From contig CALWYF010000008.1 of assembly GCA_944385705.1 (NCBI GenBank), positions 1 to 54,719 of the forward strand: DNA of 54,719 nucleotides, given 5' to 3'. Below, one piece after another: positions 19,009 through 51,075 of this stretch (the first letter of the stretch is position 1; the number at the start of each line of letters is the position of its first letter). The stretch comes from an uncultured Oscillospiraceae bacterium. GTDB taxonomy: Bacteria; Bacillota; Clostridia; Oscillospirales; Oscillospiraceae. A program made the translations under genes and the position numbers. The notes under the pieces are model-generated. The model was not told where the DNA came from and did no database searches. It saw nothing but the letters and a program-made list of their open reading frames with translations.

Positions 19009-19030
19009 TAATCGACAAAAGACCTATCTT

Positions 19031-19066
19031 CAAATGGGCTATGGCTTTGTAGCCATAGCCCATTTG
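19031..19066 (+). promoter_or_regulatory. 16-bp perfect hairpin after the binding-protein gene
   Basis: CAAATGGGCTATGGCT (19031-19046) pairs perfectly with AGCCATAGCCCATTTG (19051-19066) across a four-base loop. There is no T-run, so it probably protects the binding-protein mRNA 3' end rather than ending transcription. Confidence 0.7.
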
Positions 19067-19083
19067 CAATAAGGGGGCTCGAA

Positions 19084-19135
19084 CTTTTTCTTTAAAAAAG
19101 TGCCAGGGCTCCTTCGGCAGTTTTTTGAAGAAAAG
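19084..19135. repeat. Imperfect inverted repeat
   Basis: The left arm CTTTTTCTTTAAAAAAGTGCC (19084-19104) nearly mirrors the right arm GGCAGTTTTTTGAAGAAAAG (19116-19135). The element sits between the 16-bp hairpin and the ATPase gene. It resembles a mobile palindromic intergenic unit, but only one copy was noticed here. Confidence 0.5.
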
Positions 19136-19173
19136 CACCCCGATATATACCTTAAGAAAACGGAAGTGATAGC

Positions 19174-32610: not shown

Positions 32611-32611
32611 T

Positions 32612-33364: not shown

Positions 33365-34119
33365 GGCTTTTGACTCAGGTGATTTATGATGTTGGCCAGG
33401 TATCCGGCTCCGAAGCCGTTGTCAATGTTCACTACAGACACACCGCTGGCGCAGGTGTTGAGCATGCTCAGCAGGGCGGCTATGCCTCCCAGGGAGGCGC
33501 CGTAGCCCACACTGGTGGGCACGGCTATCACCGGGGCATCGGCCAGGCCGCCTATTACCGAGGGCAGAGCTCCCTCCATGCCTGCCACGGCGATTATGCA
33601 GCGGGCGCTCATTATGGGCTCCAGATTGTGCAGCAGCCGGTGCACCCCGGAGACCCCCACGTCATAAAGCTTGGTGACTTTGTTGCCCAGAGCCATGGCG
33701 GTCACCGCCGCCTCCTCCGCAACGGGGATGTCGCTGGTGCCGCCGGTGGCTATCACGATGGTCCCGTCCCCGTCCGGCTCCGGCAGGGAGCCGATAATGC
33801 CGATGTTTCCGGCCTGGTTATAGTCAAGGGGATGCTCCCGGGCTATCTCTGCGGCGGCGGCTTTGTCAATGCGGGTGACCAGTATGGTCTTCTGGCCACG
33901 CCGGAGCATGGCGGAGGCTATGGCGCATATCTGCTCCGTAGTCTTCCCGGCCCCGTAAATGACCTCGGCCACGCCCTGACGCAGCTCCCGGTGATGGTCC
34001 ACCTTGGCAAAGCCCAGGTCCTGAAACGGTTCCATCTTAAGCTTTGTCATAGCCTGAGCGGGCTCCAGTTCTCCGCTCTTTACCTGCTCTAAAATATGCA
34101 ATATATCCAGCTGACTCAT
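33361..34119 (-). CDS. larB: Pyridinium-3,5-biscarboxylate mononucleotide synthase LarB
   Basis: First enzyme of nickel-pincer cofactor synthesis; it carboxylates and hydrolyses nicotinate adenine dinucleotide. The 252-residue protein has the AIR-carboxylase (PurE-like) C-terminal domain: VIATGGTSDIPVAEEAAV, VGVSGVHRLL, AVAGMEGALPSVIGGL and VPTSVGYGASLGG. The N-terminal portion FAKVDHHRELRQGVAEVIYG is typical of LarB. GAGAGGT precedes the ATG. It is first in larB-larE-larC; the apoenzyme gene larA is not in the window. Confidence 0.94.
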   Translation of the reverse strand: MSQLDILHILEQVKSGELEPAQAMTKLKMEPFQDLGFAKVDHHRELRQGVAEVIYGAGKTTEQICAIASAMLRRGQKTILVTRIDKAAAAEIAREHPLDYNQAGNIGIIGSLPEPDGDGTIVIATGGTSDIPVAEEAAVTAMALGNKVTKLYDVGVSGVHRLLHNLEPIMSARCIIAVAGMEGALPSVIGGLADAPVIAVPTSVGYGASLGGIAALLSMLNTCASGVSVVNIDNGFGAGYLANIINHLSQKP

Positions 34120-36281: not shown

Positions 36282-36344
36282 GAGCCGGACGCCGAAAGGG
36301 AGCGAAAGCTCCCGGCAACATAAGCTTATAGCCTGAACAGTATT

Positions 36345-36379
36345 AAAACCCGCAGAGGTCATCGGCCTCTGCGGGTTTT
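36345..36379 (+). terminator. Terminator after the cysteine synthase-like gene
   Basis: A perfect 14-bp stem AAAACCCGCAGAGG / CCTCTGCGGGTTTT with a seven-base loop. Confidence 0.88.
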
Positions 36380-36423
36380 CCCTTTACCGTCAGCCCTGTG
36401 CCGTGGCACTGTAATACGGTAAT

Positions 36424-36454
36424 ATAAAAACAGCCGTCCTGAAGGACGGCTGTT
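36424..36454 (-). terminator. Terminator of the Na+:solute symporter gene
   Basis: On the minus strand AACAGCCGTCC pairs perfectly with GGACGGCTGTT across TTCA and is followed by a T-rich tail. Confidence 0.75.
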
Positions 36455-36502
36455 CTCCCATGCTGTCGGAGCTATCGGCACGGGAATAAGAGAGGGAAAA
36501 GT

Positions 36503-36541
36503 GAGACGCAAACGGGAGACGCAAACGGGAGACGCAAACGA
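36503..36541. repeat. Three tandem 13-base repeats
   Basis: GAGACGCAAACGG occurs three times head to tail (36503-36515, 36516-36528, 36529-36541, the last ending in A) with a partial fourth copy, GAGACGGAT. It lies just past the symporter stop codon. Confidence 0.8.
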
Positions 36542-36549
36542 GAGACGGA

Positions 36550-37986
36550 TTAGCCTTCCGTTTTTTTATATTCTTCTTTCAGCTGAGCATAGACCTTGTA
36601 GCCTTCAGATACTTTCTCTTTACTGCTAAGAGTGAGGATGCACAAAGTGAGAAGTCCAACTGCAACAGAAGGTATAAGGGGTTCGGAAGTGAGAGGAGGA
36701 TTCTCCATAAAGTACCAGATAACGGCTACTGCTCCGCCGCAAAGAATGGACCAGAAGGCCGCCCGGGAGTCAACCCGAGGCCAGAAGAGAGAAACCAGAA
36801 GAACGATGGCAGCAACGGCCCTGATCTGAGAAATCTGCATTGTCTGGTTAAAGATGGAGGTGACACGGGTTGCCATGTATACAGCCAGGACACCGACAAC
36901 TATGGTAAATATTTTGGAAACAAAAAGGGTATCCTTTTCAGTTGCCTGAGGCCTTATGAAGGAGAGGTACATGTCCTGAATGAAAGTAGTGGTCACGATG
37001 AGCAGGAAAGCCGGAGCTGTGGAGAAGATGGCAGCCAGAACAGCCACCACAGCCAGACCTCCGATGACCGGACTTACACTGGCCGACATGGTGTACAAAG
37101 CAGTGGCGGAATCTATCTCAGGCATAACAGCCCTTGCAACAATACCGATGATAACAGGGAAGAAGGCAAAAATTATCAGCAGCAGGCAGGTGATGTCAAT
37201 ACCCAGCTTTACATCTTTATAGGACTTACCGGCGGAGATTATGGTGGTGAGGAAGGCGCTGCTGAGTTGAGCCAGAAGGCCGGTTATTGCCCAGATAAAA
37301 ATCTGCTTGGGACCTGGATTAAAGGGACTTGTATAGTTCTCCGGAAGGGCATCCACAATGGCCTTCCAGCCTCCTCCATAGTTGACGGAGCAGATGGCAA
37401 CTATGGCCAGACCTACAATCAGTATAAAAGAGTGCAGCTTGTTCATGGAGGCCAGACCTTTTAAGCCGCCCAGGCAGGATATTATTACAAACAGCACGCC
37501 AAGCACCATTATCATGGTGCTTTTTTCAACGCCAAACATAGGGGCCAGCACAGAGGCTGCTGCAACCGGCTGCAGGGCGAAAAGACAGATATACACTATG
37601 CAGACAACCACAAGCATTATGATCTTTGTCTTTTTGTCAAAGCGCAGTTCATATGCGGAAGGAATGCTCATAATACCCCGAGTCACATATAGAGCCCGAT
37701 AAAACCTGCCGAAAAGAATACGGTAGGCAAAGAAGCCTATTGCAATACCCCATACCGTCCACACGGCGGCCATTCCTATTGTGGACATGGCCTCGGTACA
37801 GGAGCCGACAGTACCGGACCCACCGATAGCCTCACTTAACATAAGAGGCACTATCATGAAAACGCTTAGACTGCCGTTAGCTGTAAACATGTCTTTCACG
37901 GTTTTGTTATGCTTTGCCATTATAAGAGCCAGAACCATGGTCACAAGCACGTAGCCAACCAAAATGGAAACAATGGTGAGATTCAA
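36550..37986 (-). CDS. Sodium:solute symporter family protein
   Basis: A 478-residue membrane protein with about 13 hydrophobic segments and the SSS-family outline: LSEAIGGSGTVGSCTEAM in helix 2, GLKGLASMNKLHSFILIVG, and the Na+-site helix around STAPAFLLIVTTTFIQDMYLSFI. Members use Na+ to import sugars, amino acids, carboxylates or vitamins. The start appears to be TTG 37986, preceded by AGGAAAGGA. It is transcribed away from the acyl-CoA genes and likely supplies the same acid or a related compound, an inference from position. Confidence 0.87.
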   Translation of the reverse strand: MNLTIVSILVGYVLVTMVLALIMAKHNKTVKDMFTANGSLSVFMIVPLMLSEAIGGSGTVGSCTEAMSTIGMAAVWTVWGIAIGFFAYRILFGRFYRALYVTRGIMSIPSAYELRFDKKTKIIMLVVVCIVYICLFALQPVAAASVLAPMFGVEKSTMIMVLGVLFVIISCLGGLKGLASMNKLHSFILIVGLAIVAICSVNYGGGWKAIVDALPENYTSPFNPGPKQIFIWAITGLLAQLSSAFLTTIISAGKSYKDVKLGIDITCLLLIIFAFFPVIIGIVARAVMPEIDSATALYTMSASVSPVIGGLAVVAVLAAIFSTAPAFLLIVTTTFIQDMYLSFIRPQATEKDTLFVSKIFTIVVGVLAVYMATRVTSIFNQTMQISQIRAVAAIVLLVSLFWPRVDSRAAFWSILCGGAVAVIWYFMENPPLTSEPLIPSVAVGLLTLCILTLSSKEKVSEGYKVYAQLKEEYKKTEG

Positions 37987-38475
37987 TGCAATACAGTCCT
38001 TTCCTTAGGCCATGTAAATATTCAAAGTGCTGTTATAAAAAACCTTATTAAAAACTTTGAACAACACGGCTTCAAGGTAACATATAGATATTTTTCCGTC
38101 AATCTAATAATTTCCAAATTCTGGAAAAATGAACAATCTTGCCGGAAGCATCTGTAGCTCCATATGTCTCTTTGAACGTTTGCCACAAAAAGCATCAGGA
38201 GTAATTGTATAAAAATTACATAAAAGCCTTAACAAATTCCCATAAAACGACAAATTTTGCGGGAAACTATTTTTTTAATTACAATTTTTTCAGAGGAATT
38301 TGCAGCAAAATATAAAAATATCTAAATTAATTCTGACTAAAATGTACAAGTGTCCGAAATTTCACAAACTATTGATTCAGCTCTTGATTTAAATTTTTTT
38401 CTGTGCTAAAAGAAAATTGTTTCAAGCCGATTTGCAAGTCAAGTGAACAAATCTTAAATGAAAGAAGGAGTTGCG
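37987..38475. promoter_or_regulatory. AT-rich divergent control region of the acyl-CoA cluster
   Basis: About 490 bases, far more AT-rich than the genes, lie between the symporter and the acyl-CoA dehydrogenase. I found no protein-coding frame I trust. TTGATT (38384-38389) with TAAAAG (38407-38412) and 17-base spacing is a weak plus-strand promoter candidate. No convincing -24/-12 (sigma-54) element is seen on either strand. The length and AT content suit a regulator-binding region. Confidence 0.5.
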
Positions 38476-39651
38476 TTGAAGTATACTTACGATTTCATGA
38501 ACGACGACCAGAAGGCTTTGGTGGATCTGGTTCATGAGGTGCTGACGGCTAAGCTGGACCCCCAGGTAGCTGAACTTGACCAGAAAGGTGAATTCCCCTG
38601 GGATGTTTACAATGAACTGGGCAAGGTTGGATTCTGGGCAATGGACGTGCCTGCAGAGTATGGCGGACTCGGTCTGGACTGCCTGACGGTCTGCCTCGTC
38701 CGGGAAGCTCTCGGATACCATGATGCAGGATTTGCCTGCTCTTTCTCAGCCTCTACTTTTGGTATTAAGCCAGTCCTGCTCTACGGTAATGAAGAGCAGA
38801 AGCAGTACTACGGCAAAAAGCTTGCCGAGGGCGTGATTTCCGCCCAGCTTCTCACTGAGCCCCAGTCCGGTTCCGACGTGGCAAACATGCTGACTACTGC
38901 TGTAAAGGATGGCGACTCCTATGTTATCAACGGCAGAAAGACCTTTGTCACAAACGGCGGCCTGGCCGGGATCTACACTGTGGCTGCGGTCACTGCTCCG
39001 GCAGATCCTGCAAACGGCAAAAAGCGCCCTGAGATCTCTCTGTTCATAGTTGACAGGGATGTTCCCGGTGTATCCGTCGGCAAGGAAGAGAACAAGATGG
39101 GCATACGCCTGTCAAACACCACCGATGTTGTATTTGAGAATGTCCGTGTCCCGGCAGCAAATCTGATCGGCGAAGAGGGCCACGGCATGGAATATGTGGG
39201 CACGCTTCTGGCCCGCACCCGTCCCACCGGAATGGCACCTGCACTGGGCCTCGGTCAGAAGGCTCTGGATCTGGCGGTGGAGTACTGCCGCACCCGCGAG
39301 ACCAAGGGCGCACCCATCGGCATGCTGCAGGCCATCCAGTTCAAGCTGGCGGATATGCAGATCCAGCTTCAGGCTGCCCGCTCCCAGCTGCTGTACAATG
39401 CCCAGATGATAGACGCAGGGACATACAGCACTCCTATGGGCAGCATCACCAAGGCTTTTGTCTCCGAGGCAGTGATGCACGTTGCCGACCAGGCTCTCCA
39501 GATATACGGCGGCTACGGCTACAGCAGGGAGTATCCGGTAGAAAAGCTGTACAGAGATGCCCGTATTTTCTCCATCTTTGAAGGCACCAACGAAATCCAG
39601 CGCCAGATAGTGGGCCGCGACGTAGTCGGCAGACTGAAGAAAAAGGCATAA
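38476..39651 (+). CDS. Acyl-CoA dehydrogenase (likely acts as enoyl-CoA reductase here)
   Basis: FAD enzyme of about 391 residues that exchanges electrons between an acyl-CoA and Etf. Motifs: LLTEPQSGSDVANM (FAD and substrate), FVTNGG, and near the C-terminus YGGYGYSREYPVEKLYRDARI plus FEGTNEIQRQIVGR, whose first Glu is the catalytic base of short- and medium-chain members. I start at TTG 38476, which follows GAAGGAG (38464-38470); ATG 38458 has no ribosome site and adds six residues. First gene of the acyl-CoA cluster, with EtfBA at the other end. Confidence 0.92.
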   Translation: MKYTYDFMNDDQKALVDLVHEVLTAKLDPQVAELDQKGEFPWDVYNELGKVGFWAMDVPAEYGGLGLDCLTVCLVREALGYHDAGFACSFSASTFGIKPVLLYGNEEQKQYYGKKLAEGVISAQLLTEPQSGSDVANMLTTAVKDGDSYVINGRKTFVTNGGLAGIYTVAAVTAPADPANGKKRPEISLFIVDRDVPGVSVGKEENKMGIRLSNTTDVVFENVRVPAANLIGEEGHGMEYVGTLLARTRPTGMAPALGLGQKALDLAVEYCRTRETKGAPIGMLQAIQFKLADMQIQLQAARSQLLYNAQMIDAGTYSTPMGSITKAFVSEAVMHVADQALQIYGGYGYSREYPVEKLYRDARIFSIFEGTNEIQRQIVGRDVVGRLKKKA

Positions 39652-39711
39652 GCAGGGAATCAGCAAAAATAAAAAAATTATATATAAAGAAAAATTGAAA
39701 GGAAGTGCCGC

Positions 39712-40515
39712 ATGAAAGAACTTGTACAGCAGTTTGACAAGGTCCTGTTTGAGCGTGACGGAGGAGTGGCGTACCTCACTCTTAATGACCCGGCAAACAA
39801 GAACCCCGTCACAGTGGAGATGATGGCCGACCTGAACAGCTGCCTGAATGTATGTGAGAGAGACGACAGCATTCGTGCCATAGTTATCCGCGGCGCCGGC
39901 GGAGCCTTCTCCGCCGGCGGCAACATCAAGGTGATGAAGGATCGCATAGACAAGGGCATTAACCGGTCCCGGGAGGGTATACGCGCCGGAGGCGAGTTCA
40001 TAATGCGTCTGCGCAATATCCCCAAGCCCACCATTGCCTGGGTAGAGGGCGCAGCGGCCGGTGTGGGCATGAGCATTGCAATGGCCTGCGACTTCTCCAT
40101 TGCCGCTGAAGATACAACCATGGTGTTTGCCTTTGTAAACATTGCCTACTGTCCCGACGGCGGAATAACCCATATGCTGACCCAGGCCGTGAGCCCGGCC
40201 AAGGCTACCGAGCTTCTGATGGGCGGCAGGAAATTCTCCGGCAAGGATGCTGCGGAATGGGGCCTCATAACCAAGGCTGTCCCCGCAGATCAGCTGGAGG
40301 AGACCGTGCAGAAATATATAAAGAAGTATTCCAACGGCCCCACCGTCACTTACGGCCAGATCAAGAATCTGATAAACCGCACTGTGTATGCCGGCCTGCC
40401 TGTCTGCCACCAGAACGAGGTGGAAGCTCAGTATATATGCAGCAGCAGCGAAGACCACAAGACTGCTGTCAACGCTTTCCTGAATAAAGAGAAGCCTGTG
40501 TTTCAGGGGAAATAA
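39712..40515 (+). CDS. Crotonase-fold protein, probably an isomerase
   Basis: Enoyl-CoA hydratase/isomerase family, 267 residues. The oxyanion hole is present (GGAFSAGGNIK, about 63-73, and AAAGVGMSIAMACD, about 114-127). The two catalytic Glu of true hydratases look absent: Ser121 stands where Glu144 of the rat enzyme falls, and the second Glu position is not conserved. Asp149 in YCPDGGITH matches the acid/base Asp of PaaG-type isomerases. It may therefore shift a double bond or act on an unusual acyl-CoA rather than add water. AAGGAAG precedes the ATG. Confidence 0.87.
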   Translation: MKELVQQFDKVLFERDGGVAYLTLNDPANKNPVTVEMMADLNSCLNVCERDDSIRAIVIRGAGGAFSAGGNIKVMKDRIDKGINRSREGIRAGGEFIMRLRNIPKPTIAWVEGAAAGVGMSIAMACDFSIAAEDTTMVFAFVNIAYCPDGGITHMLTQAVSPAKATELLMGGRKFSGKDAAEWGLITKAVPADQLEETVQKYIKKYSNGPTVTYGQIKNLINRTVYAGLPVCHQNEVEAQYICSSSEDHKTAVNAFLNKEKPVFQGK

Positions 40516-40541
40516 TTTTCCGGAGAGGAAAGGAGAAAATC

Positions 40542-41843
40542 ATGGCGAAGTTTAATGTCAAGGATCTGTCCCCAAAGATGGACGGCAGATTTTACTATGG
40601 CTGGGTGATGCTCTTTATGGGCTTCATCTGCATGTTCATAGCCTATGTTATAAAGGCTAACTGCACATCCCTGTTCTACACCCCCATATGCGAAGAGTTC
40701 GGAGTATCCAGAACTGTCTATGCTCAGACCAACACCACAATGACGGTCTGCATGCTGATAGGCTCCGCCTATATCGGCAAGATAATGACCAAGTACAAAA
40801 TGAAGTATGTGCTGCCTGCATTCACCGTGGTCATCTGCATAACTTATCTGCTCATGTCCCGCTCCAACGCGATGTGGCAGCTGCTGGTACTCAACGGTAT
40901 CCAGGGCTTCATGTGGGCCGGTATGACCAACCTGCCTGTGAACATCATGGTCTCCAACTGGTTTGGTCCCAAGGTCAAGGGCACCGCAATGAGCATAGGC
41001 ATGCTGGGCTCCGGCGCAGGCGCTCTGGTCTGGGTCCCCATGATGGAGAGGATCATGTCAAACAGCGGCTGGCGTACCACCTATGTTGCAATGGCCGGTG
41101 TTATGGCTATTATGATCCCCCTGGCTTTCTTCCTCTGCGTTAACCTGCCTGAGGAAAAGGGCTTCAAGCGCCGTATCGGCGACCCCACTCAGGAAGAAAT
41201 CGATGCTACCGGCGGTGTTGCCATTACCAAGCGCGGCATTTCCGGTAAGGAAGCCCTCAAGCTGCCCCGCTGGTGGTGCCAGTTCCTGGCCGCAAGTATA
41301 ACCATGATTTGTGCTTCCGGCTTTACTACCCAGGCCGTCGCATACTTTTCCGACATCGGTGCAGAGAACGGCGCAGCCATTTACGCTGCCGCTCTGGGCA
41401 CTCTGATTCTGGGCAAGTTCCTGGTAGGCGCCATCTCCGATATCATCAACATCAAGCGCATGGCTGTCATAGCCCCTCTGTTCTATGGAGCAGTGTTTAT
41501 CTTCCTGGCCCTGTGCAGTAAAAACATGGTCTGGTCCAACGCAGTTATAGTCTGCTACATGATAGGCGGCGCAATCCCCTCCACCGTTCCCGCCCTGCTG
41601 ACTGTCCGCAACTTCGGCGATAAGGATTACGGCCTTATGGCCGGCTGGATGAACATGGCCGGCAACATCGGCCAGATCATCGGACCTATTGCTGCTGCGG
41701 CTGTGTTTGACATCACCGGTACTTATGTTATGGCCTGGTACGTCTTTGCCGGCCTGTTTATCCTGGTCTCCATCCTGTACTATCTGTCCGGCGTGCTCAA
41801 CAAGAAAGAGCTGAAGGCCGCAGGCTATGATCCGGATCTCTGA
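40542..41843 (+). CDS. MFS transporter
   Basis: Major facilitator carrier of 433 residues with 12 predicted helices and a central cytoplasmic loop (about 195-235, GFKRRIGDPTQEEIDATGG). The layout, with an N-terminal YYGWVMLFMGFICMF helix, resembles oxalate/formate antiporter-like and BaiG-like carriers. It probably imports the cluster's carboxylic acid or exchanges it for the reduced product. Neighbouring enzyme genes on both sides are tightly spaced (26 and 65 bases). Confidence 0.88.
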   Translation: MAKFNVKDLSPKMDGRFYYGWVMLFMGFICMFIAYVIKANCTSLFYTPICEEFGVSRTVYAQTNTTMTVCMLIGSAYIGKIMTKYKMKYVLPAFTVVICITYLLMSRSNAMWQLLVLNGIQGFMWAGMTNLPVNIMVSNWFGPKVKGTAMSIGMLGSGAGALVWVPMMERIMSNSGWRTTYVAMAGVMAIMIPLAFFLCVNLPEEKGFKRRIGDPTQEEIDATGGVAITKRGISGKEALKLPRWWCQFLAASITMICASGFTTQAVAYFSDIGAENGAAIYAAALGTLILGKFLVGAISDIINIKRMAVIAPLFYGAVFIFLALCSKNMVWSNAVIVCYMIGGAIPSTVPALLTVRNFGDKDYGLMAGWMNMAGNIGQIIGPIAAAAVFDITGTYVMAWYVFAGLFILVSILYYLSGVLNKKELKAAGYDPDL

Positions 41844-41908
41844 GAAAAAAGCAAACAACCCCACTGTTTCCATTCAATCAGTACAAATTTTGACGAGAGG
41901 TGATATTA

Positions 41909-43117
41909 ATGGCTAATCTTCCTCTGGAAGGAATGAAAGTCGTAGAACTTGGTACTCATTTTGCAGTGCCCTCAGTTACAAGAATCTTGGCTGACTGGGG
42001 TGCTGATGTTGTCAAGGTAGAAGGCCTGAAAGGCGATGCCTGGCGTATAGTGGGCCGCAATCAGAAATGCCCCATTGTGGACGATGAAAACCCCTTCTTC
42101 ACTGTGCCCAATGCCAACAAGAAGTTCCTGGCATTGAACCTGAAGGACCCCGACGGTAAAGAGGCCATGATGAAGCTGGTAGCCGACGCGGATATCTTCG
42201 TCAGCAACATGCGCCTTCCTGCTCTTACCAAGCTGGGCTTCTCCTATGATCAGCTGAAGGAGAGCTTCCCCGGAATCATTTATGTACATTTCTCCGGGTT
42301 CGGATATAAGGGACCGGATGCGGCTCTGCCCGGCTTTGACTCTGTGGCCTTCTGGGCCCGCTCCGGCGCTATGATAGACTGGGGCACCGAGGGCAACTTC
42401 CCCTTCCTGGCACCCACCGGAGCCGGAGATGCCATGGTGGGCTCCATACTGTGCGCCGGTGTTCTTGCCGCAGTCATAGGCAAGGAAAAGACCGGAAAAG
42501 GCTGCTTCGTCTCTTCCTCCCTGCTGGGCAGCTCCATCTGGTACAACAATGCAGGCGTCGTTTCGACTCAGTACGGCAATGTATTCCCCAAGGACAAGGA
42601 TCACCCGGCAAACCCCTTCGGCTGGCAGTATCAGTGCTCCGACGGCGAATGGCTCATGGTAGGTGTTCTGGACTATGCAGATGCCTACAAGAAGATAATG
42701 CCCATGATGGGACACGAGGATCTGGTGGACGACGAGCGCTTCAACACCATTACGGCTGTGCAGCAGCATCTGGATGAGTTCATGCCCATTCTGCGGGCCG
42801 GATTCATGACCGACACCAGAGACAACTGGGTCAAGCGCATAGGCGCGGCCAATATCGTCATCGGCAAGATAGGTCATATGAAGGAGCTGGCATACGACGA
42901 GCAGGCTATAATCAACAAGTTCGTGGTTCCGGTTACCTTCCCCAGCGGGAAAACCGTGCAGATGCCCACGGTACCTGTACAGTTCTCCGCCTATGATGTG
43001 GGTGAAGCCTACGAGCCCACCGGCAGCATTGGCCGTGATGACGATGCCATTTTGTCCAGCCTGGGTTACAGCGCAGAGCAGATTGCGGCAATGAAAGAGA
43101 AAGGCGTTACCAAGTAA
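41909..43117 (+). CDS. Class III CoA-transferase (CaiB/BaiF family)
   Basis: A 402-residue transferase that moves CoA between carboxylic acids. It starts LPLEGMKVVELGTHFAVPS, has DWGADVVKVEGLKGD, and its catalytic Asp is probably Asp174 in APTGAGDAMVGS, equal in context to Asp169 of formyl-CoA transferase. Such enzymes recycle CoA from the reduced product onto new substrate, saving ATP, as CaiB and CarA do. ATG 41909 follows GAGAGGTGAT; GTG 41900 is open but worse placed. Confidence 0.92.
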   Translation: MANLPLEGMKVVELGTHFAVPSVTRILADWGADVVKVEGLKGDAWRIVGRNQKCPIVDDENPFFTVPNANKKFLALNLKDPDGKEAMMKLVADADIFVSNMRLPALTKLGFSYDQLKESFPGIIYVHFSGFGYKGPDAALPGFDSVAFWARSGAMIDWGTEGNFPFLAPTGAGDAMVGSILCAGVLAAVIGKEKTGKGCFVSSSLLGSSIWYNNAGVVSTQYGNVFPKDKDHPANPFGWQYQCSDGEWLMVGVLDYADAYKKIMPMMGHEDLVDDERFNTITAVQQHLDEFMPILRAGFMTDTRDNWVKRIGAANIVIGKIGHMKELAYDEQAIINKFVVPVTFPSGKTVQMPTVPVQFSAYDVGEAYEPTGSIGRDDDAILSSLGYSAEQIAAMKEKGVTK

Positions 43118-43123
43118 TGTGTC

Positions 43124-43153
43124 TTGCAGCAATGCTCATGGACATGGTATAAA
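43124..43153 (+). promoter_or_regulatory. Candidate promoter of the regulator genes
   Basis: TTGCAG (43124-43129) and TATAAA (43148-43153) are 18 bases apart. A CCCGCCGTCTG/CAGGCGGCGGG hairpin with loop GAAA lies in the leader (about 43171-43196) without a T-run. Confidence 0.45.
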
Positions 43154-43246
43154 ATCATCAGTGAACTCTGCCCGCCGTCTGGAAACAGGCGGCGGGTATC
43201 GGCCAGTTATCTGAACAAATCTACAGTTCACGGATAGGGGAAAAAT

Positions 43247-44644
43247 ATGTTAATCAAAGACGACAGCTGCATAGCCGAACAGACCATCATTCGATATCAA
43301 AGCAACAATGTTGCCAAGTTGATGGGCAGCGATTGGTATGGGATACTTCTGCGTAATCCCAACGGAGACACGGTGGTGGACACCTGTTTTAATGTCTCGG
43401 GGGTAGATGACGGGATAATTCTTGACTTTGCAAGAGAGAGCCTGTCCTATGAATTTCTGCTGAACGGAGGCAGCGAGCTGTTCACCTTCAGAGGTTCTTA
43501 TTTCTACGTGTATCCTATCCGCAGGACCAACAAGGGATATATAGTTTTCTTCCTGTTTTACAGGAAGGACAGCAACTTTGACGATAGGGACATACAGTGG
43601 TACATAACCTATGCCCAGACCGCTTACCAGAGAGTGCTTCTGGAAAACGAGCTTATCCAGGTGAGAAACTATAACGAGGCCATTTTGCAGAATGCTGGCT
43701 GTGCCGTGATAGTTATAGACAAAAAATACAGGGTATTGTCGGCAAATCCCACGGGAGAGAAATATTTTGGCTCTACCCGGCTGCAGATGGATAACTTCCG
43801 CGAGCCCAACGAGCTTATGGAAATGATCGGGGATGTCTTTGCCAATGGCAGCAGCGGCTGCATATCCGGCTTGTGGTTCGATCAAAAAGGCGACCTGCTT
43901 GAGCATGCGCTGCTGCGCACCTGCGTGTCACCTCTGCGGACCAGTAAGGGCGTGGTCTCTGCGGCTATCATTATTGCCACCGATATATCCAGCGCCGATG
44001 CCTCGGCCTATACTGAGGCAAAGAAACGCCAGAACAAAGAGATAGAGAATATTTATCTCGGCTATGTCAAAGATATTCGCCCGCCTCTTATGAACATCAA
44101 GGGCTGCGCCGAACTGCTGAAAGACAGCAGGGAATGGAGCGAAAGCGAACAAAAGCTCATTGACTATATCACGCAAGAGGCGGACAAGATAGAGAATCTC
44201 AACAAGGAGATGGAAGTGTTCCGGGAGATAAACAGGGCGGAGGGCTATGAGCGGTCTGACCTGAATACGATCCTGCTGAATTGCGCAACCATAGCCGGCA
44301 GATTCAAAGCCATGAAGCAAGTGGACATCCAGCTACGTATATCAGACGATATACCCCTGCTGTCCATAGACAGCAGCGATTTGTATGTAGCTCTGCTGTC
44401 CATATTGCAAAACCTGGTGGATTTAGCCAGCCCTGAGGGAAAGATAAATATTTCCAGCCGTTTTTCCAGGCACCTGAAGCTGGTAAAACTTGAGATCAAA
44501 GCATTATTGGGCGAAAAAAAGGACAGCAGCTTTGAAAACGACCTTGTCGTTTCAAATATTATCCGACGCTATAAGGGCACCATTTCCGTCCAAAGAAAGG
44601 CAGAGAAAGAAATAGAGTATGTGATCAGCTTGCCTACAATGTGA
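43247..44644 (+). CDS. PAS sensor resembling a histidine kinase without its His (pseudokinase)
   Basis: A 465-residue soluble protein. Residues about 1-135 look like a GAF-type sensor, about 140-250 form a PAS domain (NYNEAILQNAGCAVIVIDKKY), and about 260-340 form a helical-hairpin dimerisation region. There YVKDIRPPLMNIKGCAELL matches the HisKA box but has Lys275 where the phospho-accepting His should be. The C-terminal part keeps an N-box-like ILQNLVDLASPEGKINIS but lacks recognisable DxGxG and GxG ATP-lid motifs. It may sense a ligand and bind the next protein without phosphotransfer. The next gene starts 25 bases downstream. Confidence 0.75.
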   Translation: MLIKDDSCIAEQTIIRYQSNNVAKLMGSDWYGILLRNPNGDTVVDTCFNVSGVDDGIILDFARESLSYEFLLNGGSELFTFRGSYFYVYPIRRTNKGYIVFFLFYRKDSNFDDRDIQWYITYAQTAYQRVLLENELIQVRNYNEAILQNAGCAVIVIDKKYRVLSANPTGEKYFGSTRLQMDNFREPNELMEMIGDVFANGSSGCISGLWFDQKGDLLEHALLRTCVSPLRTSKGVVSAAIIIATDISSADASAYTEAKKRQNKEIENIYLGYVKDIRPPLMNIKGCAELLKDSREWSESEQKLIDYITQEADKIENLNKEMEVFREINRAEGYERSDLNTILLNCATIAGRFKAMKQVDIQLRISDDIPLLSIDSSDLYVALLSILQNLVDLASPEGKINISSRFSRHLKLVKLEIKALLGEKKDSSFENDLVVSNIIRRYKGTISVQRKAEKEIEYVISLPTM

Positions 44645-44669
44645 GCCGGGCAGAAATGGAGAAAGCATA

Positions 44670-46058
44670 GTGAAAACAATGCAAAACGTCCTGATTGCAG
44701 ACGAGTCCAACGTGACTCAGCACATTCTGGCTTCAACATATATCAAGGCAGGATATCTTATACGAACGGCTTCATCTGTGGAGGAGCTGAAGATGTCTCT
44801 GCATATTGATTCCATCACCCTCGTTCTGCTGAGCATGGGCTTTAGCGGAGGCAACCCCTTTGAGCTTATACGTGAAATAATAAAAGAAAGACCCGGCATC
44901 AAAATTATTTTAATGGCCACCTCGCTTTCCATATCCGAGACGGTAGAGTTCATGAAAGCCGGAGTAAGCGACTGCGTTGTAAAGCCCTTCCAGGCTGAGG
45001 CGCTGCTGAAAAAGACCCAGCAGATGTTTGAGGCTGAGGACAAGGTGAACAGGCTGTACAGCAGACGGCCCGCAGCCAGCGCCAAAATCAGCACTTACAA
45101 TCTGCCCCTGGATTCCACTGTGGAGGAGAGCAATCCCCTTATCAGGGAGATAGACAACACCGTGGATTCCATAAAAAACTACTGGGTCAATGTGCTTATA
45201 ACCGGCGAGACAGGCAGCGGCAAATCCTTATATGCCCGGAAGATACACTATGGGGAAGCAACCAGGAACGAACCCTTTGTATCCTTTAACTGTGAGGCCA
45301 TACTTCCGGAGGATATGGAGCGGACTTTGTTCGGCGAACGGGTGCGGGGGGAGAACGGCCTTATACAGCACAGCAAGGGAAGACTGGAGCAGGCAGGAAA
45401 AGGTACTCTGTTTATTCAGGGACTGGACTGTATGCCTCTTGAACTGCAGTCGAAAATGGTGAACGTGCTGCAGGAACGGAGCTTTGAGCCTGTCGGCGAC
45501 GAGAGCAGCCTGCCCTTTGAGGCACGCATCATTGCCACCATGACCATCAGCCCTGAGCAGGGAATTGCTATGGAAAAAATCCGGAAGGATCTGTATTACC
45601 TGCTGAATGAGGTGCGTCTGGATATTCCGCCCCTGCGCATGTGTAAGGACAGGATACCCGGCCTGGTATCTTCAATGATGCAGAATCTGAGCAATGAAAC
45701 CGGAATTGGAATTCCCCATGTAACTGAAAACTACTGGAATATTCTCGCAGCTCATGACTGGCCCGGGAATGTGAAAGAGCTGGCTAATGTTGTGAAATAC
45801 TCTTTCCTGATCGCCAGGGGCAAGGAGATGAGCAGCAGCATGCTCCCCATGAGTGTTACTCAGAACTATCCCAAAAAGATATCCGGCACTAACAATGACG
45901 AGTTTTTTGATTTGAGGGATTACATCAAAGAACAGGAAAAAGAAATCATATTTCAGACTTTGGAAAAGTTTAACGGCAATAAGATCAAAACCGCTCAGTA
46001 TCTTAGAATATCTGAAAGGGCTTTGCGGTACAAGATAAATGAATATATCAACGAGTAA
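44670..46058 (+). CDS. NtrC-like AAA+/Fis regulator with pseudo-receiver domain
   Basis: A 462-residue protein with three domains: receiver (about 5-120), AAA+ (about 150-385) and Fis-type HTH (about 420-460, NGNKIKTAQYLRISERALRYKI). In the receiver the phospho-Asp is replaced by Ser55 (LVLLSMGFSGG), while Asp11, Thr84 and Lys105 remain. Walker A GETGSGKS (179-186) is intact, but Walker B reads GTLFIQGLD instead of GTLFLDEIGD, and the GAFTGA loop is missing (FGERVRGENGLIQ). WPGNVKEL is kept. It should bind DNA, but sigma-54 activation looks unlikely. GTG 44670 follows GGAGA. Confidence 0.8.
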   Translation: MKTMQNVLIADESNVTQHILASTYIKAGYLIRTASSVEELKMSLHIDSITLVLLSMGFSGGNPFELIREIIKERPGIKIILMATSLSISETVEFMKAGVSDCVVKPFQAEALLKKTQQMFEAEDKVNRLYSRRPAASAKISTYNLPLDSTVEESNPLIREIDNTVDSIKNYWVNVLITGETGSGKSLYARKIHYGEATRNEPFVSFNCEAILPEDMERTLFGERVRGENGLIQHSKGRLEQAGKGTLFIQGLDCMPLELQSKMVNVLQERSFEPVGDESSLPFEARIIATMTISPEQGIAMEKIRKDLYYLLNEVRLDIPPLRMCKDRIPGLVSSMMQNLSNETGIGIPHVTENYWNILAAHDWPGNVKELANVVKYSFLIARGKEMSSSMLPMSVTQNYPKKISGTNNDEFFDLRDYIKEQEKEIIFQTLEKFNGNKIKTAQYLRISERALRYKINEYINE

Positions 46059-46100
46059 TAGACAGATACCGAAACAGATTCGGGGCAAGAGGGTGTTTAG

Positions 46101-47606
46101 ATGAGGCTTGAACAGATGTTTTATTCTTCGGCAGAAAAATTCCCGGAAAAAACGGCGGTCGTATGCAAAGACAGCCGGGTAAGCTACAGACAAGTTGTGC
46201 AGGGTATGAACCGGTTCCGGGAATATTTGGAATCCAACACCAAGCCCGGAGACAAGATCCTTATCGTGGCCCACAACTCAATAGAACAGCTGGAACTCAT
46301 GTTGGCCTGCTTTGCGTCGGACAGGGTGGCCTGCCCGGTCAATTGGCGCATGTCAAAGCAGGATTTGAGTGAAATGCTCAGAGACAGTCCTTTCAGCTTC
46401 TGCTTTTATGATGAGGCCTGCGGGGAACTGTTTGTCAGCGCCAGAAGTCAAGGGCAACCGGAGCTTCAGGCCAGAAAATTTGAAGAAATCCCGGCAGCGG
46501 AGAAGCCGGATTACATGGAAGCCGGAACCGGTGAAGACAGCATAGCACTGCAGTTTTTCACCAGCGGCTCCACGGGGAAGCCCAAATGTGTTCCCCACAG
46601 TCACGGCAGCCTGGGCCGCTATGCTAAGGTTTATTCCAAGGTTTCCGGCTGGAGCAGCGAGGATATATATGAGACGCAGTCCAATTTGTTCCACTTGTCC
46701 GGTTTCTCCTGCCTCATAAGCCTGTTTGTGGGCAGCACGCTGGTGCTGATGGACCGATTCCGGGAAGAAGAATTTTTCCAAACAATGGAAAAAGAACACT
46801 GCACCCGCATCAGCCTTGTGCCTACCCTCATCTCAAAATGTCTCAGTTCAGGGGCATTTCACAAATATGATTTTACCTCTGTAAGGAAAATCGTTTACGG
46901 CGGATCCGCTTTGCCGCTGGCCCAGGTAAAACGTACTCTGGCCGAGTGCGCCTGCTCCCTGGAGCAGGCATACGGTACCACCGAGACATGCAACATCAGT
47001 GTGCTCAGCGGTGAGGACCATATAAGGGCCGTTAACGGGGAAGGACCAAAGACCTTGCTCGAAAGCGTGGGGAAACCTATTCCCGGCGTTGAGGTGCGTA
47101 TCCTGGACGAGGATGGCAATCAGGTTAAGGAAGGCCCGGGAGAGGTGGCGGTGCGCAGCCCCTTCCTGTCCCAGCAGCTACATAAAGTGCGAGGCGAGGC
47201 CTTCGCGGCAGACGGGTTTTACCGCACCGGTGACATCGGCAGAATGGACAGCGAGGGCTACCTGTATCTTATTGACAGGAAGAACGACATGATAGTCAGC
47301 GGCGGGGAAAATATCTACCCAAGGGAAGTGGAAAACTGCATCTCCCACCTGGTGGAAGATGTGTCGATGGTGGTAGTCATCGGCGTTCCGGACCCCTATT
47401 GGGGAGAAAAAGTAGTGGCTTTCGTTGTGAGGCACCCGGGCTCCAACATCACGGAAAAAGAGATCATCGACTTTTGCCGGGGCCAGATCGCCAGCTATAA
47501 AAAGCCGCGCCGTGTAATTTTTCTGGACAGGATACCATTAAATACCAATGGCAAAATGAGCCGCAAGCTGATGAAAAAAATTTACGCCAGTCAATATGCA
47601 GATTGA
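46101..47606 (+). CDS. Acyl-CoA synthetase (AMP-forming)
   Basis: ANL-superfamily ligase of 501 residues activating a carboxylic acid to its CoA thioester. Motifs in order: LQFFTSGSTGKPKCVPH (P-loop, about 150), YGTTETCN (A5), GFYRTGDIGRMDSEGYLYLIDRKNDMI (split: TGD in A7, IDRKNDMI in A8) and the A10 Lys in NTNGKMSRK. It resembles CaiC/BaiB-type ligases in setting; the substrate is unknown. In CoA-transfer pathways the ligase primes the cycle and the transferase sustains it. Confidence 0.92.
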   Translation: MRLEQMFYSSAEKFPEKTAVVCKDSRVSYRQVVQGMNRFREYLESNTKPGDKILIVAHNSIEQLELMLACFASDRVACPVNWRMSKQDLSEMLRDSPFSFCFYDEACGELFVSARSQGQPELQARKFEEIPAAEKPDYMEAGTGEDSIALQFFTSGSTGKPKCVPHSHGSLGRYAKVYSKVSGWSSEDIYETQSNLFHLSGFSCLISLFVGSTLVLMDRFREEEFFQTMEKEHCTRISLVPTLISKCLSSGAFHKYDFTSVRKIVYGGSALPLAQVKRTLAECACSLEQAYGTTETCNISVLSGEDHIRAVNGEGPKTLLESVGKPIPGVEVRILDEDGNQVKEGPGEVAVRSPFLSQQLHKVRGEAFAADGFYRTGDIGRMDSEGYLYLIDRKNDMIVSGGENIYPREVENCISHLVEDVSMVVVIGVPDPYWGEKVVAFVVRHPGSNITEKEIIDFCRGQIASYKKPRRVIFLDRIPLNTNGKMSRKLMKKIYASQYAD

Positions 47607-47654
47607 CAAAAAATCAAACAGCAAACATTAGACAAAGGAAAGGGAAAACGCAGC

Positions 47655-48443
47655 ATGAATATTTTAGTTTGCATCAAGCACGTTCCCAAAGAAGAGGACA
47701 TGAAGCTGGACCGGGAGACCAAAACCCTGATCCGCACTAACGGTACCGGCGAGATCAACCCCCTGGACAGATATGCTCTGGAGATGGCTATGCTCATCAA
47801 GGAACAGCTGGGGGGAAAAGTTACGGCCATATCTATGGGACCGGACAGTTCCATGGCGTCTCTGCGCTATGCGCTGTCCGTGGGGGCGGATGATGCCGTC
47901 CTGCTGAGCGACAGAGCCTTGGGCGGAGCGGATGCCTATGCCACCGCGAAAACGCTGGCCGCTGCCGCAGAAAAGCTGGAGGCGGAAAAGGGCGCCTTTG
48001 ACTTGGTGCTGTGCGGAAAGAACTCCAGCGACGGAGATACCTTCCTGGTGACTCCGGCTCTGGCAGAACAGCTTCACCGCCCGCATACCACGGGTGTGGT
48101 AGGCTTTGAGCTGGAGGAGAACGGGATAAAGCTGAAGCGTGAAATCGAATCCGGGTTTGAAACTCTCAGTATAAGCTTTCCCGCTGTGCTGTCCGTAGGA
48201 AAGGCTGAGTTCCCATACCGTTTCCCTCAGGTGCGTCTGCGCCTGGCTGCAAACCGGAAAGAGATACCGGTATACGGAGCGGCGGCTCTGGGGCTGGAAC
48301 CGGAGACTGTGGGCGCCCGGGGCTCTCTTACCAGTGTGGGCAGCTCCTTTGTGCCGGAGCACAGCAAAGACTGCATTCGCTTTGAGGGCGAGCCGGAGGA
48401 AGCGGCAAGGAACCTGACCGCCGTGCTCAAAAAAATCATTTGA
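47655..48443 (+). CDS. etfB: Electron transfer flavoprotein beta subunit
   Basis: A 262-residue subunit starting MNILVCIKHVPKEEDMKLD, with the nucleotide-binding segment LCGKNSSDGDTFLVTPALAEQL that marks EtfB/FixA. It pairs with EtfA to carry electrons to or from the acyl-CoA dehydrogenase. Whether it bifurcates electrons cannot be settled from sequence by eye. The start of etfA lies 20 bases after its stop. Confidence 0.94.
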   Translation: MNILVCIKHVPKEEDMKLDRETKTLIRTNGTGEINPLDRYALEMAMLIKEQLGGKVTAISMGPDSSMASLRYALSVGADDAVLLSDRALGGADAYATAKTLAAAAEKLEAEKGAFDLVLCGKNSSDGDTFLVTPALAEQLHRPHTTGVVGFELEENGIKLKREIESGFETLSISFPAVLSVGKAEFPYRFPQVRLRLAANRKEIPVYGAAALGLEPETVGARGSLTSVGSSFVPEHSKDCIRFEGEPEEAARNLTAVLKKII

Positions 48444-48463
48444 TGGGAAAGAGGTACGATTCT

Positions 48464-49438
48464 ATGACTGAGAACAGAGACATTTGGGTATATGTTGAGA
48501 CTGATCAGGGAAAGATCGTAAAGAGTTCCCTTGAGCTGTTCACTCCCGCCCTGGAGATGACGGGCAAAACCGGGGGACAAGTGACGGCGGTCATACTTGG
48601 CAGCAATATAGAAGAGGCAGCAAAGACTCTGGGCCAATACGGTGCCGGTAAGGTGATTGCCGCCCGCACCGGGGAATATTGCCCCGAAGCCTACACCGCC
48701 GCTATGGCGCAGCTTATAAATAAGTATAAGCCCGATGCAGTGATGTTCAGCGCCACTGCCAACGCCAAGGATTTCGTTTCCAAGCTGGCATGCAGGATAA
48801 AGACCGGTGTTACGGCCAATTGTACTGAGCTGAGCATAGATCCGGAGACAGGACTTATATCCTGGATGATGCCTGCCCCCGGAGGAATAGTGGCCACCAT
48901 CCTTTGCGAAAAGACACGCCCCCAGATGGGTACTGTCTGCCGGGGAATATTCAAAGCTCCTGTTCCCGACGAGAGCAGGGAGGCGGAGGTCATCTTTGAA
49001 GATACGGATGCAGTGCCCAGCACCCAGATCCGCCGCCTGGCAAAGGAGATAATAAAGGCCGAAAAGAGCATAGAAGATGCGGGGATAATAGTGGCCGGAG
49101 GCTACGGCGCCCGCCCTGAGGGATTCGTTTTGCTGGAGCAGTTGGCCGACGCCCTCGGCGGAGTTGTGGCTGCGTCCAGGGCCGCAGTGGATGCGGACTG
49201 GATAGCTGCGGACCGTATGGTTGGCCAGAGCGGGAAAGTGGTTCATCCGAAGCTCTACATAGCCTGCGGAATCTCCGGAGCCCTTCAGCATATAGTCGGC
49301 GTGGCGGCGGACTGCGTCGTTGCCATCAATAATGACCCGAGAGCGCCCATCTTTGAAATCGCAGACTATGGAATAGTGGGCTCAATCTTTGACGTGGTCC
49401 CTGCACTGATAGAAGAAGTGCGCAAGGCCAAAGGCTGA
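48464..49438 (+). CDS. etfA: Electron transfer flavoprotein alpha subunit
   Basis: A 324-residue subunit; the C-terminal FAD domain carries VAGGYGARPEGF, ASRAAVDADWI, QSGKVVHPKLYIACGISGA and INNDPRAPIFEIADYGIVG. There is no N-terminal ferredoxin-like extension of the kind found in caffeyl-CoA reductase CarE. ATG 48464 follows AAAGAGGT (48448-48455); the frame is also open from ATG 48440, which would overlap etfB by 4 bases. Last gene of the cluster, followed by a terminator. Confidence 0.94.
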   Translation: MTENRDIWVYVETDQGKIVKSSLELFTPALEMTGKTGGQVTAVILGSNIEEAAKTLGQYGAGKVIAARTGEYCPEAYTAAMAQLINKYKPDAVMFSATANAKDFVSKLACRIKTGVTANCTELSIDPETGLISWMMPAPGGIVATILCEKTRPQMGTVCRGIFKAPVPDESREAEVIFEDTDAVPSTQIRRLAKEIIKAEKSIEDAGIIVAGGYGARPEGFVLLEQLADALGGVVAASRAAVDADWIAADRMVGQSGKVVHPKLYIACGISGALQHIVGVAADCVVAINNDPRAPIFEIADYGIVGSIFDVVPALIEEVRKAKG

Positions 49439-49491
49439 AAGCTCCGAGACGGAATCAGCTCTTTTCTTAAAAAATGATATCCTGACTAAAA

Positions 49492-49525
49492 CACCCCGGA
49501 CAGGTTTTTATTCCTGCCCGGGGTG
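49492..49525 (+). terminator. Terminator of the acyl-CoA cluster
   Basis: CACCCCGG/CCGGGGTG with CAGG/CCTG inside forms a strong stem; AAGTTTTG follows. It lies about 50 bases after the etfA stop. Confidence 0.75.
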
Positions 49526-49632
49526 AAGTTTTGTCTGCCTCCAATGTCCCAAACTGGGGAAAGCACTGACTGTAGGGCAGAAGCTGCCGCAGCAAAACTC
49601 AGCTTTTGCGACTTTATCCGCCCATGTGTATA

Positions 49633-49661
49633 TTGAACTTGTCACTTCAATCCTTTAAAAT
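49633..49661 (+). promoter_or_regulatory. Promoter of the amino acid permease gene
   Basis: TTGAAC (49633-49638) and TAAAAT (49656-49661) have 17-base spacing. A short CCGGC/GCCGG hairpin follows. Confidence 0.55.
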
Positions 49662-49713
49662 AAAAAAGCTGCCGGCATTTTCAGCCGGATAAGAAAACTA
49701 AAGGAGAGAGGGC

Positions 49714-51075
49714 ATGGATAAGCAGCTGAAGGAGAAGTACGGACTTGTAACCGCCATTGCCATGGTGGTGGGCATTGTCATTGGCAGCGGCGTTTTCTTT
49801 AAAGCGGAGAAGGTACTGTCGGCAACGGGAGGGGACCTGCCCCTGGGCATACTGGCCTGGGCTCTGGGCGGGGCGATAATGGTTGCCTGCGCCTATACCT
49901 TCTCGGTGATGGCTACCCGTTATTCCCATATAAACGGCATAGTGGATTATGCCGAGGCAACAGTGGGGAAGAGATATGCCTATTTCATGGGCTGGTTTAC
50001 CACATTCATATATTACCCTGCCATGACCTCGGTGCTGGCCTGGGTGTCTGCCCGCTACGTGGGGGTGCTGCTGGGCCTGGACATTACCGGAGGCCCGGTG
50101 ATGACTCTTGCCTGCCTGTTTTTGGTGGGCAGCTATACCGTCAATGCTCTTTCTCCCATACTGGCGGGAAAGTTACAGGTCACAACAACTGTCATCAAAC
50201 TGATACCTCTGCTGCTTATGGCAGTGGTGGGGACTATAGCGGGCCTTGGCAACGGCATGACGGTGCAGAACTTTGTCACCGTGGTAGAGCCGGTAGCCCA
50301 GGGCAAGGGTGTGGCCCTCTTCACCGCTATGGTGGCCACGGCCTTTGCCTATGAAGGCTGGATAATAGCTACAAGCATAAATGCGGAGCTGAAAAACTCA
50401 AAGCGGAACCTGCCCATAGCCCTGGTGCTGGGGACGCTGATAGTTGCGGCAGTGTATATCCTGTATTATATAGGCCTGGCCGGAGGAGCCACAAATGCCG
50501 ACATGATGGCCAGCGGCGAGGCCGGGGCCAAGCTGGCCTTTGAAAATATCTTCGGCAGAGCGGCGGGAGTGGGCCTTTTTGTGCTGGTGGTCATATCCTG
50601 TCTGGGCACTCTCAACGGCCTGATGCTGGCCTCCACCCGGAGCCTCTACGCCCTGGCCGCCAGAGGCGAGGGACCCAGACCGGAGATATTCAGCGAAGTA
50701 GACAGGCACACCAATGTCCCCGGCAACTCCGCCATAGTGGGAGTAATGGTCTGCGCCCTGTGGCTCTTCTACTTCTACGGAGCCAACCTCACAGAGAACT
50801 GGTTTGCTCCTCTGCGTTTCGATTCCTCGGAGCTGCCCATAATAACCATCTACGCTCTGTATATCCCCATCTTCCTTGTAATGATGATAAGGGAAAAGAG
50901 CCTGCACCCGGTGAAACGCTTTGTGATGCCAACGCTGGCTATACTCAGCTGCATCTTTATGGTCATAGCTTCCATTTTTGCCCACCGCATGGGTGTGGTG
51001 TGGTACCTGATGGTCTTTGCCTTTGTAATGCTCCTTAGCATTCCCTTTTACAAAGGAAAGGCCGGAAAAACTTAA
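49714..51075 (+). CDS. APC-family amino acid permease
   Basis: A 453-residue carrier with 12 predicted helices. Helix 1 has the ligand-binding glycine motif VGIVIGSGVFF (about 20-30), and helix 6 starts VATAFAYEGWIIATSINAEL, as in the LAT/serine-threonine-type APC exchangers. The substrate cannot be named. AAGGAGAG precedes the ATG. A perfect hairpin ends the gene, which converges with the lipoprotein gene on the other strand. Confidence 0.88.
   Translation: MDKQLKEKYGLVTAIAMVVGIVIGSGVFFKAEKVLSATGGDLPLGILAWALGGAIMVACAYTFSVMATRYSHINGIVDYAEATVGKRYAYFMGWFTTFIYYPAMTSVLAWVSARYVGVLLGLDITGGPVMTLACLFLVGSYTVNALSPILAGKLQVTTTVIKLIPLLLMAVVGTIAGLGNGMTVQNFVTVVEPVAQGKGVALFTAMVATAFAYEGWIIATSINAELKNSKRNLPIALVLGTLIVAAVYILYYIGLAGGATNADMMASGEAGAKLAFENIFGRAAGVGLFVLVVISCLGTLNGLMLASTRSLYALAARGEGPRPEIFSEVDRHTNVPGNSAIVGVMVCALWLFYFYGANLTENWFAPLRFDSSELPIITIYALYIPIFLVMMIREKSLHPVKRFVMPTLAILSCIFMVIASIFAHRMGVVWYLMVFAFVMLLSIPFYKGKAGKT

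Follow-up and report, generated by a model that had tools for sequence, protein, structure and literature searches.

Positions 36550-49438 of a 54,719-nucleotide stretch from an uncultured Oscillospiraceae bacterium, an anaerobe of gut type (contig CALWYF010000008.1; the whole stretch is called the window below) hold ten uninterrupted genes that, we believe with somewhat more confidence than doubt, encode a CoA-dependent electron sink. It would work like the carnitine (cai) and caffeate (car) pathways with an added double-bond shift, under regulators that need neither phosphorylation nor sigma54. The most surprising feature is that the signalling chemistry is almost wholly lost in a regulator pair that is itself retained. 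One gene, for an SSS-family carrier, lies on the - strand. The nine genes on the + strand encode, in this order, an acyl-CoA dehydrogenase (ACAD), a crotonase-fold protein, an MFS carrier, a CaiB-type CoA-transferase, a kinase-like and a regulator-like protein, an acyl-CoA ligase, and the subunits EtfB and EtfA of an electron-transferring flavoprotein (ETF). They are spaced by 25-129 bases (with the ACAD counted from 38476), and EtfB and EtfA overlap by 4. Nine of the ten proteins match Pfam families above the gathering score, the exception being the kinase-like protein, and the families confirm the parts list (ACAD, crotonase fold, CoA-transferase, ligase, EtfBA, MFS and SSS carriers) given in an earlier model-made note on this DNA, the original prediction. 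The host genome comprises 2.26 Mb in 95 contigs and is 96.4% complete.

A scan of genome contigs with the window CoA-transferase gave three confirmed loci, L004, L005 and L006. At L004 (uncultured Oscillospiraceae, CALXGL010000123.1) all nine + strand genes are found in identical order, so the run from ACAD to EtfA is no chance juxtaposition; the genome search for the same gene set that the original prediction had proposed thus yielded one further instance. Identity between the two loci is 86% for the ACAD, 89% for the crotonase-fold protein, 76% for the MFS carrier and 90% for the CaiB-type protein, and 50% for the kinase-like protein, 57% each for the regulator-like protein and the ligase, 37% for EtfB and 43% for EtfA. 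The SSS gene is not kept. An SLC13/CitMHS carrier occupies the divergent place in L004, and for this reason we are unsure whether the SSS carrier belongs to the cluster. The other two loci were rejected as full clusters: at L005 the CaiB gene adjoins 2-oxoacid:ferredoxin oxidoreductase-like genes, and at L006 (Roseomonas), where an ACAD gene and two CaiB-type genes are present and a crotonase gene lies at a distance, the ligase, ETF and regulator queries found no match. The kinase-like protein was detected only in the window's own genome, both among 300 family genomes (E up to 1e-20) and, as a profile, among 391 class genomes (E up to 1e-25), L004's genome lying outside these samples. ACAD matches at 1e-60 occurred in 15 of 102 genus genomes and, the window's own aside, were all at most 47% identical. 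A plasmid search with the regulator covered 2389 records, the best place in each being below 60% identity.

The double-bond shift is suggested by the active site of the crotonase-fold protein. Phe141 stands where crotonase has Glu144, Asp149 at the place of PaaG Asp136, and Glu167 at that of Glu164. Close relatives are encoded at eight loci besides the window (L004, L054, L067, L068, L069, L070, L079 and L080), and all nine proteins share the Phe and the Asp; the third site is Glu in seven and Asp in two. E. coli CaiD, in contrast, has Glu at the site of Phe141. PaaG is described as homologous to delta3,delta2-enoyl-CoA isomerases and as working through Asp136; it also isomerises cis-3,4- to trans-2,3-didehydroadipoyl-CoA (PMC7497051). 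Because the hydratase Glu is gone and the PaaG Asp is kept, the window protein is probably a delta3,delta2 isomerase rather than a CaiD-type hydratase. Three Thermus thermophilus PaaG entries (6sl9, 6slb and 6sla) are among its six best PDB sequences. Its NCBIfam scores lie under the cut-offs, with 168.9 bits for PaaG (cut-off 345) and 197.2 for the best model, oxepin-CoA hydrolase of the alternative type (cut-off 300), and unlike PaaG it has no phenylacetate pathway context. The original prediction had considered a rearranged acid as one possible substrate, an idea that gains support from this PaaG-type active site.

For the ACAD, the best NCBIfam model is AcrC with 334.3 bits, short of the cut-off of 640. 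The Glu in its FEGTNEIQR stretch, which we take to be catalytic, aligns with the YEGT of medium-chain acyl-CoA dehydrogenases (MCADs). Mitochondrial MCADs are among its nearest PDB sequences, and CarC comes only 25th of 121 (232 bits, the best sequence having 286); CarC ranked 19th when the PDB was searched with L047. A tree was drawn from 43 rows, among them two each for the window, CaiA and YdiO. Here the window and L004 ACADs form one long-branched lineage within an 18-row group with support 98/98, which includes the ACADs of L048-L051 (beside ETF and GlcD-like genes) and those of related modules. A 100/100 fork separates this group from CaiA, YdiO and the other ACAD of the host genome. The tree does not resolve the exact sister, and the tool warned of long branches meeting at the CaiA fork. 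The phylogeny that the original prediction had called for therefore sets the enzyme apart from CaiA; the tree was drawn without CarC, AcrC and Bcd references and does not speak to those enzymes.

EtfB scores 137-173 bits against the PDB sequences 4kpu, 7qh2, 7koe, 6fah and 5ol2 and only 57-78 bits against 1o94, 5ow0, 1efv, 1efp and 2a1t. The same comparison for EtfA gives 179-261 bits against 96-133 for the second group, and 68 for the fragment 3ih5. Both subunits are thus closer in sequence to 4kpu, 6fah and their kin, the group that we take to be bifurcating, than to mitochondrial-type ETFs. The nearest PDB sequence to EtfA is CarE, aligned from residue 68; the unmatched first 67 residues of CarE are presumably a ferredoxin domain. 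The window EtfB (47655-48443) and the L004 EtfB (14756-15568) both lie on long branches.

We favour the reductive direction because the genome lacks matches for thiolase and hydroxyacyl-CoA dehydrogenase, because the ETF subunits are near those that we take to be bifurcating, and because ligase and CaiB occur together as in the cai pathway. Thiolase_C (PF02803) has no match in the whole genome, compared with matches in 12 of 14 control genomes (11 above the cut-off), and 3HCDH (PF00725) has none either, compared with 7 of the 14. The absence of both enzymes, which the original prediction had noted, thus holds genome-wide, and full beta-oxidation was rejected on this ground. Respiration by means of enoyl-CoA reduction is an established concept (PMC8805022). 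In the cai pathway, the ligase CaiC activates and the transferase CaiB exchanges CoA (PMC3680233).

In the scheme that we propose, the direction of the reaction, the isomerase step, the way in which CoA is cycled, the working of the regulators and the class of substrate are inferred. It would run as follows. The MFS carrier, perhaps together with the divergent SSS carrier, would import an unsaturated carboxylate, which the ligase would prime using ATP. The PaaG-like protein would shift the double bond from the beta,gamma to the alpha,beta position, and the ACAD would reduce the resulting alpha,beta-enoyl-CoA with electrons supplied by EtfBA. The CaiB-type transferase would then pass CoA from the reduced product to fresh substrate, and the saturated acid would leave. 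Control of expression would fall to the kinase-like protein and its regulator-like partner, perhaps as a complex like that in which NifL holds NifA. If this is true, isomerase-coupled enoyl-CoA reduction joins the known anaerobic electron sinks.

Several observations weigh against this scheme. No cluster protein passes the curated cut-off of any reductive family. The electron-sink reduction of the original prediction is still the best-supported reading, through ETF subunits close to presumed bifurcating ones, AcrC as top model for the ACAD and the distance of this enzyme from CaiA and YdiO in the tree; taken as a whole, the original prediction is supported in part. Some relatives have genes that a catabolic route would use: a CaiD-like crotonase is encoded in addition at L067, L079 and L080, together with a YdiF-like CoA-transferase (truncated at the contig end in L080), L067 carries a MaoC protein, and L069 has a thiolase-like gene (recognised by eye). 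Just two full instances of the cluster were found, the window and L004. In addition, the ETF genes diverge far faster between these two (37% and 43% identity) than those for the ACAD, the crotonase-fold protein and CaiB (86-90%), and the window EtfB reads DGDTFLVTP where the motif is DGDTAQVGP; the Leu that replaces the Gln is found in the window and L004, the Gln in the other 14 of 16 aligned sequences. Because of this Leu and the low EtfB and EtfA identities we regard electron donor and bifurcation as tentative.

ACADs run in both directions, and the cluster might instead oxidise a saturated acid: the ACAD would form an enoyl-CoA, EtfBA would accept the electrons, the crotonase would act on the product, and CoA-transferase and ligase would merely activate. 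The mitochondrial MCADs near the ACAD and the further catabolic-type genes at L067, L069, L079 and L080 speak for such a route. However, the genome has no thiolase or 3HCDH match to process the product, no FixC/FixX-type gene lies within the cluster (the only part of the genome searched for one), and the ETF is less close to the mitochondrial type than to the group of 4kpu and 6fah. We consider oxidation unlikely, and the best of the alternatives to the reductive scheme.

The control genes were compared with E. coli AtoS and AtoC, the best NCBIfam models for the kinase-like and the regulator-like protein, and motif states were read from this alignment for the window and L004. The kinase-like protein appears to consist of an N-terminal alpha/beta domain, a PAS-like part, a DHp-like part without its His and an ATPase-like part without G1 and G2 boxes. 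Lys275 stands at the phospho-His position (Asn in L004), the G1 and G2 boxes are gaps in both proteins, and the N-box Asn is present in the window and gone in L004. In the regulator-like protein, the phospho-Asp position holds Ser55 (Gly in L004), GAFTGA is replaced by RGENGL (DPGSPA in L004), and the Walker B DE by QG (QE in L004). The features kept are Walker A, the REDL-stretch Arg and the Fis-type helix-turn-helix (HTH). The two proteins resemble AtoS-AtoC as models, yet phospho-His, phospho-Asp, G boxes, GAFTGA and Walker B Asp are gone. The 'pseudo-two-component' control of the original prediction is confirmed residue by residue, and the losses go further than it had claimed, as GAFTGA and Walker B are also gone and the genome has no RpoN match.

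RpoN (PF04552) is without a match in the window's genome and in that of L004 (G1216, for which completeness is not given); 8 of the 17 genomes searched have one, 7 above the cut-off. Among the seven other genomes with related crotonase loci, five match (G050, G280, G154, G143 and G673), and two do not (G689 and G710, 73% and 84% complete). Same-genus genomes pass the cut-off in only one of eight cases (G673), with G109 below it, so the lack of RpoN is common in the genus and not peculiar to hosts of the cluster. An ACAD-linked regulator at L056 keeps GAFTGA, and its genome, G1031, has RpoN.

We propose that the two proteins act as a sensor and DNA-binder pair independent of phosphorylation and of sigma54. 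NtrC-type regulators of Caulobacter and Rhodobacter that lack GAFTGA act at sigma70 promoters, but they keep the receiver Asp, which matters (PMC10274813); the window pair has both partners stripped. NifL inhibits NifA through direct interaction and not by modification (PMC9866876), and a likeness to NifL-NifA may describe how the window pair works, complex formation being hypothetical. A structure model of the kinase-like protein has low confidence (mean predicted local distance difference test score 55), and its Foldseek list of kinases, phytochromes, NifL (rank 7) and, lower, RetS and DivL gives a hint only. If the proposal holds, it shows how a two-component activator can be retained as a regulator that does without phosphorylation where the genome has no sigma54.

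Alternatively, the pair may be a decaying remnant that no longer has a role, with the cluster controlled otherwise. Most of the catalytic motifs examined are lost, with Walker A, the REDL Arg, the HTH and, in the window only, the N-box Asn remaining, and identities of 50% and 57% compare with 86-90% for ACAD, crotonase-fold protein and CaiB. However, both reading frames are full-length and keep the same place in two species, the Fis-type HTH is retained, and the ratio of non-synonymous to synonymous substitution rates (dN/dS), taken between window and L004, comes to 0.21 for the kinase-like and 0.16 for the regulator-like protein, rough values since dS is near 2 and thus near saturation. Such low ratios speak against decay, and we regard it as improbable.

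With regard to known systems, the cluster belongs to none of the cai, car and Acr families, whose membership was rejected on cut-offs, PDB ranks, the tree and active-site residues, and it would resemble them in its working, with isomerisation as an added step. The difference from the cai and car models that the original prediction had pointed out is borne out. An acrylate-type (AcrCBA) propionate branch, in which a hydroxy acid such as lactate would be activated and then dehydrated and reduced, has in its favour that AcrC and AcrA are the top NCBIfam models for ACAD and EtfA and AcrB the second for EtfB, that the MFS carrier is lactate-carrier-like and that lar-like genes lie nearby. Yet AcrA (254.7 bits, cut-off 600) and AcrB (150.9, cut-off 475) fail their cut-offs as AcrC does, the cluster has no lactoyl-CoA dehydratase, its crotonase lacks the hydratase/dehydratase Glu and, unlike AcrCBA, it adds this crotonase and CaiB; a branch of this kind seems quite doubtful. 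The nearby genes at 31444-34119 (-) are LarC-, LarE- and LarB-like by eye. A lactate link through them was dropped, as the genome has no Lar_N (LarA) match.

The likeness to CarCDE, the caffeyl-CoA reductase of Acetobacterium woodii, lies in an ACAD with EtfBA, in the ligase/transferase logic and in CarE as nearest to EtfA; in contrast, CarC is not closest to the ACAD, EtfA has no CarE N-terminal extension, and the window has a crotonase. The E. coli cai/fix pathway of carnitine and crotonobetaine has an identical functional set (ligase, class III CoA-transferase, ACAD, crotonase-fold protein and two ETF subunits) but is very improbable here, since scores stay under the NCBIfam cut-offs (CaiA 170.2/540, CaiB 121.6/413, FixA 100.5/219 and FixB 121.5/549 bits), the 100/100 fork with its long-branch warning splits the ACAD from CaiA, the crotonase is PaaG-type without the CaiD Glu, and the cluster, with MFS and SSS carriers, lacks the BCCT carrier CaiT as well as CaiE, CaiF, FixC and FixX (CaiT, FixC and FixX were looked for within the cluster only). 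It also differs in having its ETF genes in the same gene run and degenerate regulators of its own.

The carriers give a hint of the substrate class. The best NCBIfam model for the MFS carrier is SfMCT, with 96.7 bits against a cut-off of 320. In the CoA-transferase, the Asp of GAGDAMVG is presumably the catalytic one. All eight loci with close crotonase relatives have a CaiB-type gene in the stretch examined, and all except L069 an ACAD. SLC13/CitMHS-type carriers accompany five of them: L004, in divergent position, and L054, L067, L068 and L079, in the same gene run (Pfam-confirmed except for L079, which rests on similarity). L069 has TctA and L070 a weak GntP-like carrier next to its CaiB gene, while in L080 the contig breaks off. 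The window's own cluster has no SLC13 carrier, its carriers being of the MFS and SSS families. The carrier types at the relatives seem to point to carboxylates, perhaps dicarboxylates. If the proposed scheme is right, the PaaG-like/CaiB/ACAD module that recurs in Oscillospiraceae-type genomes, with carriers of citrate or dicarboxylate type, would mark a class of acid conversion that is easily mistaken for fatty-acid oxidation. Itaconyl-CoA hydratase is reported to work as an itaconyl-CoA isomerase too, and a different enzyme, IrdA, is mentioned as reducing itaconate to methylsuccinate (PMC12290011). Itaconate is thus one candidate substrate, as a guess. A long shot is respiration of beta,gamma-unsaturated dicarboxylates, for example of itaconate to methylsuccinate, by CoA transfer, isomerisation to a mesaconyl-type ester, ACAD-Etf reduction and CoA hand-over, under a ligand-sensing pair free of phosphorylation and sigma54.

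Table 1. Features of the cluster in the window
Feature	Position	Strand	Basis
SSS-family sodium/solute symporter, TTG start	36550..37986	-	PF00474 84.6 bits; divergent carrier
Divergent intergenic region, presumed promoter/operator	37987..38475	.	
Acyl-CoA dehydrogenase fold, probable enoyl-CoA reductase, probable TTG start	38476..39651	+	PF00441/PF02770/PF02771
PaaG-like crotonase-fold protein, probable delta3,delta2-enoyl-CoA isomerase	39712..40515	+	active-site residues
MFS carrier, lactate/oxalate-formate-like	40542..41843	+	PF07690
Class III (CaiB/Frc) CoA-transferase	41912..43117	+	PF02515 285.9 bits
Histidine-kinase-like sensor	43247..44644	+	HisKA and PAS models, below gathering score
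AtoC/NtrC-like regulator	44670..46058	+	Walker A, Fis-type HTH kept; PF02954 42.3 bits
Acyl-CoA ligase, AMP-binding family	46101..47606	+	PF00501 232.9 bits, PF13193 67.8 bits
EtfB	47655..48443	+	PF01012
EtfA	48440..49438	+	PF01012, PF00766
Terminator-like hairpin 3' of EtfA	49492..49525	.	13 pairs, 10 G-C; reported for - strand only

For the ACAD, the TTG at 38476 is a likelier start than the ATG at 38458: the two are separated by a Shine-Dalgarno-like AAAGAAGGAG, and the aligned codon of L004 is ATG. Sigma-70-like sites are not enriched in 36300-49900 (13, against a mean of 12.2 in shuffles), and a comparison of window and L004 gave no convincing promoter motif common to both. The end at 49525 in the original prediction does not hold as a gene end, since EtfA stops at 49438, and it stands as the edge of the terminator-like hairpin. 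An amino-acid permease gene (PF13520, 49714-51075, +) beyond the hairpin is probably unrelated to the cluster.

Further acid-related genes are found elsewhere in the host genome. A second acid cluster (L022; G000:C35, 2556-15786) has a CaiB-type gene, a ligase, an ACAD, two EtfAB pairs and two flavin-reductase-like genes, with PucR-like regulators nearby (by eye and similarity). Another locus (L021; G000:C34, 2491-10181) combines a CaiB-type gene with 2-oxoacid:ferredoxin oxidoreductase-like subunits, a pairing also seen in L005, and carries a D-2-hydroxyacid dehydrogenase-like gene and SSS and MFS carriers. Directly 3' of the L004 cluster, at 16633-19203, lie genes for a GlcD-like FAD oxidase and a second EtfB and EtfA, which are related to the L022 ETFs.

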